This document shows positions 51,995 to 57,448 of a stretch of 64,000 nucleotides of DNA, piece by piece. The stretch covers positions 2,666,001 to 2,730,000 of the forward strand of contig NZ_CP025624.1 of the NCBI RefSeq assembly GCF_002874965.1, written 5' to 3'. Both the position numbers and the translations under genes were made by a program. The notes beneath the pieces are model-generated. The model ran no database searches and was not told the origin of the DNA. It was given only the letters and a program-made list of their open reading frames with translations. The stretch's first letter is position 1. Every line of letters starts with the position of its first letter. Origin of the DNA: Pseudomonas sp. NC02. Lineage in GTDB: Bacteria > Pseudomonadota > Gammaproteobacteria > Pseudomonadales > Pseudomonadaceae.

Positions 51995-53413
51995 ATGAGC
52001 CTCCTGCCTTACGCCTGGGCCAAATCCCAACGTATCCTCCTTCACCCGGGAACCCAGGGCCCGACGCTGACCATCTGCCCCTCGACCCCCGGCTGGTCCA
52101 TCAGCGAGGTCTACCGCCAGTTCGGCCAAACCCACCTGATCCAGGTGCGCGACGACGAACTCGACGGCCTCCTGGCCACTGCCTACGCCGACACCGGCAG
52201 CGCCGCCGCCGTCGTGGGCGCCGCCGAAAACGAAGTCGACCTCGACCGCCTCATGCAAGACATCCCCGAAATCACCGACCTGCTCGACACCCAGGACGGC
52301 GCCCCGGTGATCCGCATGATCAACGCCTTGCTCACCCAGGCCGCCCGCGACGAAGCCAGCGACATCCACATCGAACCCTACGAAACCCACTCCGTGGTGC
52401 GCTACCGCGTCGACGGCACGCTGCGTGACGTGGTGTCCCCGCGCAAGGCCCTGCACGGCGCCTTGGTCTCACGCATCAAGATCATGGCCCAACTCGATAT
52501 CGCCGAAAAACGCCTGCCCCAGGACGGCCGCATTGCCCTGCGCGTGGCCGGTCGCCCCATTGATATCCGCGTCTCCACCGTGCCCACCGGCCATGGCGAG
52601 CGCGTAGTGATGCGCCTGCTGGACAAACAAGCCGGCCGCCTGCAGCTGGAAACCCTCGGCATGGACCCCGCCGTCCTGGCCAAACTCGACACCCTGATCC
52701 GCCAACCCCACGGCATCGTGCTGGTCACCGGTCCCACCGGCAGCGGCAAGACCACCAGCCTCTACGCCGCCCTGGCCCGGCTGGATGCGAGCACCAGCAA
52801 TATCCTGACCGTCGAAGACCCGGTGGAATACGACCTGCCGGGCATCAGCCAGATCCAGGTCAACGCCAAGATCGACATGACCTTCGCCCTGGCCCTGCGG
52901 GCAATCCTGCGCCAGGATCCGGACATCATCATGATCGGCGAAATCCGCGACCTGGAGACCGCACAAATTGCCGTCCAGGCCTCGCTCACGGGCCACTTGG
53001 TGCTCGCCACCCTGCACACCAACGACGCCGTCTCGGCGGTCAACCGCTTGATCGACATGGGCGTCGAACCGTTCCTGCTGGCCTCGTCACTGCTCGGCGT
53101 ATTGGCCCAGCGCCTGGTGCGTCGGCTGTGCCCGCACTGCAAGCAGGAAGACCCGGCCGCGCCCGGCACCTGGCGGCCTGTCGGGTGCGCGCAGTGCAAC
53201 CAGATCGGTTACAGCGGGCGTACCGGTATCCATGAATTGTTCTGCATCGACGACGAGCTGCGCGGGCTGATCCACCAGGGCGCCGGCGAGCAGGCCTTGA
53301 AAGCCGCCGCACGCCGGGCCGGCATGTTCAGCATGCGTGAAGATGGCGAACGCTGGGTACGCAGCGGCGCCACCGCCCCCGAAGAAATCCTGCGCGTAAC
53401 ACGGGACGCCTGA
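51995..53413 (+). CDS. hxcR: Type II secretion ATPase E (HxcR)
   Basis: 472 residues from ATG 51995; no strong ribosome site is seen and the start lies just past repeat C. GspE parts in order: N-terminal domain, [10 protein letters not shown], Walker [10 protein letters not shown] near 245, Asp box and Walker [17 protein letters not shown], His box LATLHTND, and a four-cysteine zinc motif (CPHC near 380 and CAQC). It powers pseudopilus assembly. The first kilobase is strongly C-rich on the coding strand. Confidence 0.92.
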
Positions 53414-54624
53414 TGAACCGATACCGCTACGAAGCCGCCGACGCCAGCGGCAAGCTGGAGTCCGGGCACCTTGAGGCAGACAGCCAGAGCGGCGCGTTTG
53501 CCCACCTGCGCAGCCGTGGCCTGACGGCCTTGCGGGTGCAGGTCGAGAACAACAACGAGCGTGCCGGCGGTGGCGGCCGGTTCAGCGCCAAACTCTCGGA
53601 CAATGACCTGGCCTGGGCCACGCGCCAGCTGGCGAGCCTGCTCGGTGCGAGCCTGCCACTGGAGGCCGCGTTGAGCGCCACGGTGGAGCAAGCCGAGAAA
53701 AAACACATTGCCCAGACCTTGAGCGCGGTGCGCGCCGATGTGCGCAGCGGCATGCGCCTGGCCGATGCGTTGGCCGCGCGGCCCCGGGACTTTCCGTCGA
53801 TCTATCGGGCGCTGATCGCGGCGGGGGAGGAGTCCGGCGACCTGGCCCAGGTCATGGAGCGCCTCGCCGACTACATCGAGGAGCGCAATAACCTGCGGGG
53901 CAAGATCCTCACGGCGTTTATCTACCCGGGCGTGGTGGGGCTGGTGTCCATCGGCATTGTGATTTTCCTGCTCAGCTACGTGGTGCCGCAGGTGGTCAGT
54001 GCGTTTTCCCAGGCTCGCCAGGACCTGCCGGGGCTGACGTTGGCGATGCTCAATGCGAGTGACTTTATCCGCGCCTGGGGCTGGCTGTGTTTTGCCGGGA
54101 TCGTGGGTGGTTTCTGGAGCTGGCGCCTGTACCTGCGCAACCCCGTGGCACGGTTGAGCTGGCACAGCCGGGTGTTGCGCCTGCCGTTGATCGGGCGTTT
54201 TGTACTGGGCCTCAACACCGCGCGGTTTGCCTCGACCCTGGCGATTCTCGGCGGGGCGGGCGTGCCGTTGTTGCGCGCCCTGGAAGCGGCGCGCCAGACC
54301 TTGTCCAACGACCGCCTGAGCCAGTGTGTCAGCGACGCGACGGCCAAGGTGCGCGAGGGCGTCAACCTGGCTCCTGCGCTGGCGGTGGAAAAGGTCTTTC
54401 CGCCCGTGCTGATCCACCTGATCGCCAGCGGCGAAAAAACCGGCTCGCTGCCGCCGATGCTCGAACGCGCGGCGCAAACCCTGTCGCGGGATATCGAGCG
54501 TCGGGCGATGGGCATGACGGCGTTGCTTGAGCCACTGATGATCGTGGTGATGGGCGCCGTGGTGTTGGTCATCGTCATGGCCGTGCTGCTGCCGATCATC
54601 GAAATCAACCAACTGGTGACCTGA
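53413..54624 (+). CDS. hxcS: Type II secretion inner-membrane platform protein F (HxcS)
   Basis: 403 residues, start overlapping the hxcR stop (TGATG). Two T2SSF domains, each with the family pattern (RQLASLLGASLPLEAAL ... ALIAAGEESGDLAQVMERLADY; FASTLAILGGAGVPLLRALEAA ... LIASGEKTGSLPPMLERAA in outline), and three membrane helices. Last gene of the hxc system; a REPIN split by an insertion sequence follows. Confidence 0.92.
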   Translation: MNRYRYEAADASGKLESGHLEADSQSGAFAHLRSRGLTALRVQVENNNERAGGGGRFSAKLSDNDLAWATRQLASLLGASLPLEAALSATVEQAEKKHIAQTLSAVRADVRSGMRLADALAARPRDFPSIYRALIAAGEESGDLAQVMERLADYIEERNNLRGKILTAFIYPGVVGLVSIGIVIFLLSYVVPQVVSAFSQARQDLPGLTLAMLNASDFIRAWGWLCFAGIVGGFWSWRLYLRNPVARLSWHSRVLRLPLIGRFVLGLNTARFASTLAILGGAGVPLLRALEAARQTLSNDRLSQCVSDATAKVREGVNLAPALAVEKVFPPVLIHLIASGEKTGSLPPMLERAAQTLSRDIERRAMGMTALLEPLMIVVMGAVVLVIVMAVLLPIIEINQLVT

Positions 54625-54649
54625 CTGCTGACGAAACACGATCAAAAAT

Positions 54650-54732
54650 GTGGGAGCGGGCTTGCTCGCGAAAGCGGTGTGTCAGTCAACACATGTCGCG
54701 CCTGATCCACCGCTTTCGCGAGTAAGCCCGCT
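54650..54732. repeat. REPIN interrupted by the IS110 element (left part)
   Basis: The left arm and most of the right arm of a GTGGGAGCGGGCTTGCTCGC-class REPIN run to CCCGCT at 54732; the missing CCCAC of the right arm reappears at 55910-55914 after the insertion. Removing 1177 bases restores an ordinary REPIN end. Confidence 0.92.
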
Positions 54733-54734
54733 TG

Positions 54735-54740
54735 TATGCT
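54735..54740 (+). promoter_or_regulatory. -10 half of a junction promoter formed on circularisation
   Basis: TATGCT at the extreme left end has no good -35 before it in the REPIN. When the ends are joined in the circular form, TTGCCC at 55888-55893 comes to lie 18 bases upstream, making a complete sigma-70-like promoter that would start transcription near 54747, at the first bridge-RNA stem. Confidence 0.6.
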
Positions 54741-54746
54741 AGGACT

Positions 54747-54900
54747 TGAAGGGAGGAGGAGGGACAAAGCCCGATTCTGACTGTTGGCGCAGTACAGACC
54801 GTGGGAGATTTCGCCCCTCCTCCTTTCACCCAAGCGCCGATAAAGAATGCATCTGGCTATGACCGACGATAGGAACAAGCCTGCGCCTCTGGGTGAGCCC
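54747..54900 (+). ncRNA. IS110 bridge RNA with target- and donor-binding loops
   Basis: Stem A: GGGAGGAGGAGGG (54751-54763) pairs with CCCCTCCTCCTTTC (54814-54827). Its loop holds AAGCCCG (54767-54773), identical to the REP just left of the core, and GTGGGAG (54801-54807), the complement of core plus right REP flank. Stem B: TCACCC and GCGC (54826-54837) pair with GCGC and GGGTGA (54883-54896). Its loop holds AGAAT (54844-54848), identical to the element's right end before the core, and ACAAG (54875-54879), complementary to core plus left end. This is the two-loop design established for the IS621 bridge RNA. Confidence 0.82.
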
Positions 54901-54936
54901 TTCAAGTGCTCAAAACCATAGCCCGGAGGAAGTCCC

Positions 54937-55884
54937 ATGGCAATGCCAGTTCCTGTCTCAAAGCCGATCGTTGGCGTCGATGTTGCTAAAAATGAGCTGG
55001 TGATTTACCACGCCGAACTCGATCTGCTGGAAGTAATCCCGAACAACAAAACCGCCATTAAAAAATGGCTGAAGGCCCTACCGGGCACCGTGGCAGTTGC
55101 GATTGAAGCTACCAACATCTATCACTTGGAGTTCGCTGATCTCGCCTATGAAGCTGGCTGCGTGATCTACATGGTGGGTGGATATGAGCTCAGCCATTAT
55201 CGTAAAGGTGTGAATATCCGGGCTAAAACCGACGCCCAGGATGCCAAATTGCTCGCTCGCTATTTAAAAAACGAAGCCGATGAACTTCGTCCCTGGACGC
55301 CGCCATCTCCTCTGTATCGCCAGCTTTTGAGTCTTTTCCGCCGCCGGGCGGCGCTGGTCCAGGCACGCGTCAGCCTGACTCAAAGCTGGGCGAATGAGCC
55401 GTTACTGAAGGCCTCTTTTACCGAGCAGGTGAAGTCGATGCAAAAGCTAGAAGGCCTGATTGAAAAGATGATCGGTGATCGCCTGAAAGAAGCTGGACTG
55501 TCGGATCAGCTAAAGCGTTGCTTGAAAGTTGAAGGTATCGGTTTTTTGACTGGAGCCCGCTTGGTTACTAGCTTTCAACGAGGTGATTTTAGAAACGCAG
55601 ACGCTTTCATCGCCTTCTTGGGCATGGATTTACGCGTTTCTAAGTCAGGACAGAAAGATAATCGTCGTAGCTTGAGCAAACGTGGCGACTCAGAAGCTCG
55701 GCGTCTTTTGCACAACGCAGCGATGGCAGCTAGCCGAACGGCTGCATGGAAGGAGTTTTATCAAGCGCAACGGGCGCGGGGTTACAGCACCACTCAGGTG
55801 CTGGTAATGCTGGCCCGCAAGCTTGCTCGAGTGGTATTTGCCTTGCTAAAAGGACAAAGCGAATACCAACCAAAGGTTGGTTGA
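54937..55884 (+). CDS. IS110-family transposase (RNA-guided serine/DEDD recombinase)
   Basis: 315 residues from ATG 54937 with GGAGG upstream. The N-terminal RuvC-like domain carries the DEDD set Asp15 (VDVAKN), Glu57 (IEATN), Asp99 and Asp102 (KTDAQDAK); a coiled-coil middle follows; the C-terminal Tnp domain has KVEGIGFLTGARLV and the catalytic Ser237 (VSKSGQKD), then LSKRGDSEARRLLHNAAM. Spacing of all five residues matches IS621 closely, so the enzyme looks active. Base composition is clearly lower in GC than its neighbours, in keeping with a mobile gene. A hairpin GGTTGAGGG / CCCTCAACC at 55879-55900 spans its stop. Confidence 0.92.
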   Translation: MAMPVPVSKPIVGVDVAKNELVIYHAELDLLEVIPNNKTAIKKWLKALPGTVAVAIEATNIYHLEFADLAYEAGCVIYMVGGYELSHYRKGVNIRAKTDAQDAKLLARYLKNEADELRPWTPPSPLYRQLLSLFRRRAALVQARVSLTQSWANEPLLKASFTEQVKSMQKLEGLIEKMIGDRLKEAGLSDQLKRCLKVEGIGFLTGARLVTSFQRGDFRNADAFIAFLGMDLRVSKSGQKDNRRSLSKRGDSEARRLLHNAAMAASRTAAWKEFYQAQRARGYSTTQVLVMLARKLARVVFALLKGQSEYQPKVG

Positions 55885-55974
55885 GGGTTGCCCCTCAACC
55901 ATAGAATCTCCCACATTTTAACTGCGTTTCTTCAAGACTATTTTCGCGCGCCCGACACGCGGGTCCCAACCTCG

Positions 55975-56284: not shown

Positions 56285-57448
56285 ATGTTTAAGCGCAACG
56301 TTCTCGCGGTATCCATGACCCTCGCTGCACTGTGCTCGGCCCAGGCTGCCATGGCAGACATCAACGGCGGCGGCGCCACCCTGCCACAACCGCTGTACCA
56401 GACCTCCGGCGTATTGACCGCCGGTTTCGCCCCGTACATCGGCGTGGGCAGCGGCAAGGGCAAACTGGCGTTCCTGAACAACGACTACAGCCAGTTCGGC
56501 ACCGGCACCAAGAACGTTCACTGGGCGGGCAGCGACTCGAAGCTGACCTCGACTGAACTGTCCACCTACGCCTCCACCAAACAAGCGACCTGGGGCAAGC
56601 TGATTCAAGTGCCTTCGGTCGCCACTTCGGTTGCCATTCCATTCAACAAGGCCGGTACCAACGCAGTTGACCTGAGCGTTGATCAACTGTGCGGCGTGTT
56701 CTCGGGCCGCATCACCACCTGGAACCAACTCCCGGCTACCGGTCGCACCGGTAACATCGTGGTGGTTTACCGTAACGAAGCCAGTGGCACCACCGAGCTG
56801 TTCACCCGTTTCCTGGCGGCCAAGTGCGTCAATGAGTCCAAGAAATTTGTGGTCACCACCAACTTCGCGGACAGCTTCGGCGTGCCTCCAGGCGCCGTGC
56901 CTGCCGTGACCAGCCAAGGCGTGATGACCGCACTGAACGCCGGTGATGGTCGCATCACCTACATGAGCCCGGACTATGCCGCGCCTACCTTGGCTGGCCT
57001 GGATGACGCCACCAAAGTGGCCAAGGTCGCCGGTGTTTCTCCAGCCCCTGATAACGTTTCCGCCGCCATCGCCGCTGTGCCCGTACCGGCTGCTGCCAAC
57101 GTCGCCAACCAGAACGCCTGGGTACCGGTGTTTGCTGCCGCCGCCGATGCCAACGATCCAAGCGTCGTGCCTTACCCAAGCAGCGGTTATCCGATCCTGG
57201 GCTTCACCAACCTGATCTTCAGCCAGTGCTACGCCGACGCCACCCAGACCTCGCAAGTGCGTGCGTTCTTCACCCGTCACTTCGGTGCCAGCGCCTTGAA
57301 CAGCAACGACAACGCGATCAAGGCCAACCGCTTCGTGCCACTGCCAGCTGCCTGGAAAGCCGCGATCACCAGCAACTTCGTTACCGCAACCAGCGCGCTG
57401 AGCATCGGCAAGTCTGATGTCTGCAACGCCATCGGTCGTCCGCTGTAA
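56285..57448 (+). CDS. DING-family phosphate-binding protein
   Basis: 387 residues with GAAAGGAG before ATG 56285. Signal peptide ends AAMA, so the mature protein starts DINGGGATLPQPLYQ, the defining DING N-terminus. The rest follows the PstS-like two-lobe fold: phosphate-loop residues in TGTKNVHWAGSDS, GRITTWNQLP, and RNEASGTTELFTRFL. DING proteins bind phosphate tightly and are made under phosphate starvation; in Pseudomonas some are exported through Hxc. The adjacent Hxc system suggests this one may be a substrate. A strong terminator follows. Confidence 0.92.
   Translation: MFKRNVLAVSMTLAALCSAQAAMADINGGGATLPQPLYQTSGVLTAGFAPYIGVGSGKGKLAFLNNDYSQFGTGTKNVHWAGSDSKLTSTELSTYASTKQATWGKLIQVPSVATSVAIPFNKAGTNAVDLSVDQLCGVFSGRITTWNQLPATGRTGNIVVVYRNEASGTTELFTRFLAAKCVNESKKFVVTTNFADSFGVPPGAVPAVTSQGVMTALNAGDGRITYMSPDYAAPTLAGLDDATKVAKVAGVSPAPDNVSAAIAAVPVPAAANVANQNAWVPVFAAAADANDPSVVPYPSSGYPILGFTNLIFSQCYADATQTSQVRAFFTRHFGASALNSNDNAIKANRFVPLPAAWKAAITSNFVTATSALSIGKSDVCNAIGRPL

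Follow-up and report, generated by a model that had tools for sequence, protein, structure and literature searches.

IS110-family recombinases of the IS621 type use a bispecific bridge RNA (PMC11208160, PMC11208158), and the principle that guides and targets covary was shown in 2024 (PMC11208160). In Pseudomonas, insertion of IS110-family elements into REPs has been known since 2006, with 7 of 7 ISPpu9 copies, 7 of 7 ISPpu10 copies and 6 of 6 ISPa11 copies found at such sites (PMC1525189), and ISPpu10 and ISPa11 are among the six elements whose predicted guides are shown in Extended Data Fig. 10c of PMC11208160.

Here we describe an element of this kind from Pseudomonas sp. NC02, lying in a stretch of 64,000 nucleotides analysed as a whole (the window), and follow its guides through relatives in the genus. 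Very probably, the element is an IS110-group insertion sequence that targets REPs, with a bridge RNA encoded in its left end. On this model, loop 1 would pair with both REP strands around the CT core, loop 2 would pair with the right and left ends once these are joined after excision, and the recombinase would then exchange strands at CT; the RNA would be made and bound by the recombinase, and the element would pass through a circle with the same strand chemistry, as in IS621. What we observed is an intact gene, a left end that folds into two loops and carries matches for all four guides, a CT at each junction, further copies in REPs, an empty site, and guides and sites that change together.

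An IS110-group element in a split REP

The genome that holds the window comprises 6.89 Mb in a single contig. Between two open reading frames (53413–54624 and 56285–57448) lies a REPIN, a pair of inverted REPs, and the second of these REPs is split by the element at AAGCCCG/CT (Table 1). The same genome contains five copies with identical left end and protein and five different flanks, all of them in REPs at AAGCCCG/CT/CCCACA; the REP 14-mer AAGCCCGCTCCCAC occurs 843 times there, and its backward control 0 times. The best 80 named relatives, of 153 found, were all labelled Pseudomonas. At the orthologous place, one of the four relatives compared, L152, aligns across the joint and has there a REPIN built from a different REP variant, unbroken and with only one copy of CT; in the other three, no REPIN aligned at this place. 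Searches of plasmid and phage collections gave no match to the element.

Table 1. Coordinates, in window numbering, of the element, its insertion site and the parts of its left end
Feature	Position	Strand	Basis or remark
Intact partner REP of the REPIN (TGTGGGAGCGGGCTTGCTCGCG)	54649–54670	−	read from sequence
Interrupted REP, left half, ending in left target AAGCCCG (54724–54730) and core CT (54731–54732)	54717–54732	+	
IS110-group insertion sequence (1177 bp, with one copy of the CT core counted in)	54733–55909	+	ends from comparison of five copies in different flanks
CT core copies	54731–54732 and 55908–55909		
Loop 1 (target loop) stem-loop	54748–54827	+	closing arms 54748–54763/54814–54827, apical hairpin ~54777–54797
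Left target guide AAGCCCG	54767–54773	+	same as 54724–54730; varies with site across genomes
Right target guide GTGGGAG	54801–54807	+	reverse complement of CTCCCAC (55908–55914); changes with site in G094
Putative target-loop handshake guide position (AT)	54808–54809	+	role by analogy with IS621 (PMC11208158)
Loop 2 (donor loop) stem-loop	54827–54895	+	
Left donor guide AGAAT	54844–54848	+	equals the element's right end 55903–55907
Right donor guide ACAAG	54875–54879	+	reverse complement of CTTGT (54731–54735), left end with core
Donor-loop handshake guide position (C)	54880	+	
IS110 recombinase, 315 aa	54937–55884	+	PF01548, PF02371, NF033542, PDB matches IS621/ISCro4, catalytic residues
Perfect inverted repeat GGTTGAGGG/CCCTCAACC near right end	55879–55900	+	sequence
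Interrupted REP, right side: core CT and right target CCCACA	55908–55915	+	

The recombinase matched both PF01548 and PF02371 above cut-off (the DEDD RuvC-like N-terminal domain and the Transposase_20 C-terminal domain with the catalytic serine), which places it in the IS110 family, and scored 170.2 bits against NF033542 "IS110 family RNA-guided transposase", for which the cut-off is 140. Its two PDB matches are IS621 and ISCro4. The DEDD residues D15, E57, D99 and D102 and the serine S237 are present and do not vary across an alignment of 12 sequences that contains the window recombinase; their catalytic roles are taken from the IS621 work (PMC11208158), and the positions of E57 and S237 align with IS621 in the PDB match, D15 lying outside that alignment. 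Non-coding DNA amounts to 204 nt upstream of the recombinase gene and 25 nt downstream, the arrangement of the IS110 rather than the IS1111 group. The element's ends read ATAGAAT and TGTATG; the one short repeat noted is ATA/TAT, and long subterminal inverted repeats are absent. A crude promoter score across the circle junction reached at best 7–9 of 12, at differing positions. The inverted repeat near the right end could act as a terminator or end signal; a hairpin is kept at this position in some relatives with other letters (e.g. TTTTGGGG/CCCCAAAA in G295). Judged from its sequence, the element is a complete and intact IS110-group insertion sequence, and probably an active one.

Two loops and four guides

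Left guides have the letters of the top strand and right guides are complementary to it, so that the layout and strands of the guides are those described for IS621 (PMC11208160, PMC11208158). The guides of loop 2 match the element's own joined ends, and these donor ends hardly vary among copies. The core is included in the pairings of the right target guide (GAG) and right donor guide (AAG), though not in every guide pairing: positions 8–9 of the left target guide read AT, and the left donor guide is followed by GC. AT at this place is found in the element and many relatives, CT only in some (e.g. G094, G384, G300), and we regard this as a lesser feature that weakens the exact likeness to IS621 and leaves the IS110 membership untouched. 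At the target-loop handshake position, the first base, opposite donor T7, is A in all 146 copies with a right end.

Short guides invite the objection that a GC-rich left end would yield such matches by chance, and words of 5–7 nt are indeed easily met: when the 204-nt left end was shuffled 20,000 times with its dinucleotides preserved, AAGCCCG appeared in 650 shuffles and GTGGGAG in 462, so a single 7-mer turns up in 2–3% of shuffles. Both words occurred together in 14 shuffles and all four guide words in only 1 of the 20,000, and the guide-swap, abundance and held-out comparisons across genomes given below also speak against chance, which we consider practically negligible as an explanation.

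The fold of 54747–54913 has an energy of −65.7 kcal/mol, compared with −51.8 ± 4.3 for 200 shuffled sequences, none of which was as low (z = −3.26). A search of Rfam at E ≤ 1 returned 4 matches, all to unrelated families and far under their gathering scores. The preliminary description had named two stem-loops in the left end and the four guides with their matches, and had read the element as a complete IS110 insertion sequence encoding a bispecific RNA of the IS621 type, its guides suited to the REP around it. Every guide letter and match proved exact, the folding energies bear out the stem-loops, and the family models, catalytic residues and guide matches agree with the identification of the element.

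Guides and sites across the genus

A survey of 398 genomes of the genus gave matches at E ≤ 0.001 in 179, among them many weak ones to other IS110 elements. Among the matches listed, 147 copies from 46 genomes were read (at most five per genome), with recombinase identities from 100 down to ~50%; before this set was fixed, L006 was dropped as occupying the same place as L001, and L114, which was cut, was replaced by L146. L055 has no right end, and L147 (G355), which has no apical anchor, was kept outside the guide-swap, abundance and independent-pair tests. The left core is CT in 113 of 114 rows, the exception (L030) being mis-anchored and reading CT on re-reading, and the right core is CT in all 110 rows that have a right end.

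Both loops are conserved among these relatives, as the bridge RNA reading in the preliminary description had supposed. Folded alone, 47 of 48 distinct left ends form the target-loop stem and 48 of 48 the donor-loop stem; 2 of the 50 distinct left ends were left out, L030 with no donor loop and L147 with no search anchors. Covariance folding had been proposed as a check. RNAalifold on the whole MAFFT alignment found both-sided change in only 3 of 30 pairs (covariation term −1.16). It helped little, since clades differ in the register of the target-loop stem, and sequences were therefore folded singly, with both loops kept. The nearest set of elements has target-stem arms unlike those of two more distant sets, and arms pair better within these sets than across them (means of −25.9 within the nearest set and −17.1 to −18.2 between sets); the two distant sets are interchangeable. 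In the L030 copy (G091), the target loop is kept and the donor loop lost, and this copy is predicted to be unable to move by itself.

Comparison of guide loops with insertion sites in related genomes, also suggested beforehand, showed that the two change together. The left guide AAGCCCG is found at AAGCCCG sites for the window element (5 of 5), G233 (2/2), G252 (5/5), G052 (3/3) and G183 (4/5). Copies with the guide AGGCTCG sit at AGGCTCG in G348 (5/5), G273 (4/5), G062 (2/2) and G111 (4/5), and at AAGCTCG instead in G205, G266 and G289, whereas the guide AAGCTCG is at AAGCTCG in G039 (4/4), G160 (3/3) and G340 (5/5). The guide AAGCCAG is at AAGCCAG in G295 (4/5), G366 (3/5) and the held-out genomes DTU12.3 (3/4) and HMWF021 (1/1), AAGCCGG is at AAGCCGG in G070 (1/1) and at AAGCCAG in G333 (1/1), and AGCCGCC is at AGCCGCC in G080 (5/5). 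In G094 both halves have moved, with guides TAGTTCG and CGTAGGAG at the site AAGTTCG/CT/CCTAC in 5 of 5 copies.

Three further groups of copies have features of their own. The single copy in G355 (L147, ~51% identical and uncounted) has a quite different target with matching guides, its loop reading ATACGCGGCT and TGTAGGAG at the site GTCGCGG/CT/CCTACA; the usual apical stem letters are absent. In G066 and G213 (L027, L028 and L081–L083), the guide CAGTTCG occurs at AAGCTCG, AAGCCCG and AGGCTCG (five sites), and could be a broad REP guide if its T bases read C by wobble. The G080 copies (L107, L108, L139–L141) are ~200 bp longer (1371 bp) owing to extra DNA between the gene and the right end, which holds a REP-like AAGCCGGCCTCCCAC motif in the two copies inspected.

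For the guide-swap test we used 146 sites from 45 genomes, with no site removed as a duplicate. Own guides matched their sites at a mean of 5.89 of 7 letters, compared with 4.87 (sd 0.12) for guides swapped among genomes, and none of 10,000 swaps was as good. A held-out collection of 19 element sets from 18 named genomes (49 sites) gave means of 5.98 and 5.22, the former reached in 4 of 10,000 swaps. Records judged to repeat genomes already used had been removed from it by eye; L176, L182, L219 and L234, which have no left end, fall outside the 49 sites, and L184, with a wrong left end at a contig edge, was kept. The strict register penalises G128, G382 and P. laurylsulfativorans, in which the guide lies one base further from the apical stem, and all were counted.

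Agreement of this sort could in principle be merely inherited, from old insertions and from REP families that related genomes have in common; element clades and REP families do partly follow host relatedness, and the mean for swapped guides is slightly higher when swapping is confined to clades (4.97 against 4.87). Even so, 0 of 10,000 swaps within clades was as good as the own guides, copies inside one genome have different flanks, and the abundance of REP variants within genomes does not explain site choice. On a quick recombinase tree of 58 rows, which requires at least 24 guide changes, the 7 independent pairs for guide position 5 also ran in the same direction (mean 6.5 same, 0 opposite, median p 0.016). 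The letter C at position 6 gave 6 pairs with 4.9 same and 0 opposite (median p 0.06), position 2 was not significant (3.8 same, 1.0 opposite), and the letters A and G at position 6 had 3 pairs each, with which 0.05 is unreachable. With these results, we hold pure inheritance to be highly improbable.

In 40 genomes we counted each REP variant by its exact 14-mer, and the abundance test covered the 102 of 146 sites that lie in five counted variants with a CCCAC tail. At 75 of these 102, the element sits in the variant that best matches its guide by Watson-Crick letters, compared with 56.5 expected by abundance; none of 20,000 draws reached 75. G039, for example, offers 628 AAGCCCG, 333 AAGCTCG and 290 AGGCTCG sites, and all 4 of its copies, with guide AAGCTCG, are in AAGCTCG. 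The guide AAGCCAG, in G295 and G366 combined, is at AAGCCAG in 7 of its 10 sites, where 2.3 were predicted by abundance (P = 0.0001); two of the seven have the ending CCTAC, which the pool count did not include. These counts support the view that sites follow the guide beyond REP abundance.

The series also indicates which mismatches are tolerated. Copies with the guide AGGCTCG were at 18 AGGCTCG and 7 AAGCTCG sites, with 5.65 AAGCTCG expected by abundance, and this guide is therefore without preference between them. The guide AAGCTCG was at 15 AAGCTCG and 0 AGGCTCG sites against 4.35 expected (P = 0.005), with one AGGCTCG exception among 3 sites in G125, a genome for which there are no abundance counts; it was at AAGCCCG in 3 of 18 cases, compared with 7.26 expected (P = 0.004). 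The converse, the guide AAGCCCG at AAGCTCG, was seen in 1 of 20 sites (2.4 expected) and was not significant. A guide G thus reads A or G without preference, A rarely reads G, and T prefers T over C; a tolerated rG:dT pair has been published for IS621 (PMC11208160). In 132 of 142 copies, the base after ACAAG (or GCAAG), at a place like the IS621 handshake, is C, and site base 7 is then always G. It is G in the 5 G080 copies, where site base 7 is C; T, in 5 copies (site base 7 C in 4 and G in 1), fits poorly. The remaining 5 of the 147 copies did not match the search pattern. For IS621, covariation at the donor-loop handshake position has already been reported (PMC11208158).

Fit is far from perfect. 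All 7 letters of the left guide are matched at 69 of 146 sites, and at 84 when G:T-type wobble is allowed; 62 sites therefore have at least one non-wobble mismatch. In G004 and G139, 4 of 5 sites are AAGCCCC under the guide AAGCCCG; fits are also poor in G363, G245 and G300 (imperfect) and in G214 (4 different sites), and the guide register of G128 and G382 is shifted by one base.

That 140 of 147 sites are REP-like in their left body by a loose pattern would also be expected if the recombinase itself recognised the REP palindrome. The left-end fold would then be a 5′ untranslated structure or the partner of a regulatory antisense RNA, as proposed for ISPpu9, whose 5′-UTR folds and is met by the antisense RNA Asr9 (PMC8450116). 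Such recognition would not account for sites that follow the guide variant beyond REP abundance, nor for closely related recombinases with different guides lying in different REP variants. Moreover, the usual REP body is missing on the left at 7 sites: at five of these, 6 or 7 of the 7 guide letters agree with the site, L134 fits only in a shifted register, and L007 does not fit. We consider recognition by the recombinase quite improbable, and favour a bridge RNA that directs the recombinase to its REPs.

The preliminary description had regarded copies at non-REP sites with unchanged loops as evidence against guidance, and L007 (G186) is in part such a copy, with a 97% identical protein and the same guide; of the other 6 sites, 5 match the guide as above. 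The left half-site of L007, TTGGTAG, is non-REP because of an 18-bp direct duplication, CTCCCACATTTGGTAGCT, that flanks the element; its right half, CTCCCACA, is intact, and the copy may have arisen by recombination between two insertions. The sites that lack the usual REP body on the left would be consistent with a tolerant guide or with rearrangement after insertion.

On the reading favoured here, loop 1 evolves quickly, so that the elements of most lineages are aimed at a REP variant of their host. Taken over the genus, we are modestly inclined to the further view that the bridge RNA of a single IS110 lineage has been retargeted again and again as Pseudomonas REP families turn over, mostly through the left target guide and rarely through both halves, with a guide G serving as a degenerate A/G reader and the donor-loop handshake base adjusted when the core-adjacent base changes. 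If this is true, the series is a natural record of RNA-guided recombinases shifting target without loss of function.

Comparison with described elements

IS621 of E. coli resembles the window element in its DEDD/serine recombinase, its left-end RNA of two loops with left and right target and donor guides in the same layout, its CT core and its REP target, as well as in rG:dT tolerance and handshake-guide positions as described in PMC11208160 and PMC11208158. It differs in the REP family and guide letters, its recombinase is only weakly similar (74 bits over residues 41–306), and its core takes part in every guide pairing as described, whereas AT at positions 8–9 of the window element's left target guide pairs only partly with the core.

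Among Pseudomonas elements, ISPpu10 of P. putida KT2440 is likewise an IS110 element with 7 of 7 copies in REPs and a 2-bp direct repeat (PMC1525189), and its predicted bridge RNA with all four guides has been published (PMC11208160); the comparison with the window element is by this published description. Its kin may include the elements of ~57–64% identity found in P. putida-type genomes. ISPpu9, from the same strain, shares the IS110 family, the REP target and a folded left end, and differs in its AG direct repeat and in having been studied, in the account consulted, as a case of regulation by two sRNAs, Asr9 and Ssr9 (PMC8450116). ISPa11 of P. aeruginosa also targets REPs, and its sequenced seekRNA matches both target strands; unlike the window element, it belongs to the IS1111 group, with the non-coding region downstream of tnp and subterminal inverted repeats (PMC11187229). 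The claim in the preliminary description of a natural second example of guides tuned to a Pseudomonas REPIN is not supported, given the published predicted bridge RNA of ISPpu10 (PMC11208160) and sequenced seekRNA of ISPa11 (PMC11187229).

We found no report of guides following REP variants between Pseudomonas species in the literature searched, outside which lay preprints and most subscription papers. The added value here is a dense natural series, within one genus, of guides retargeted along REP variants. Because the sites of this high-copy repeat were counted, the choice of target can be set against what each genome offers; the series also gives natural guide mismatch rules, and supplies closely related recombinases with different guides for retargeting tests at the bench. 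Natural joint reprogramming of guide and target has been described for ISEc11 and ISXne4 of the IS1111 group (PMC11187229), one pair of elements, non-REP-directed as described there, whereas the series here spans many genomes and one target class. The kind of element found in the window is already known, and the comparative series is more informative than the single element.
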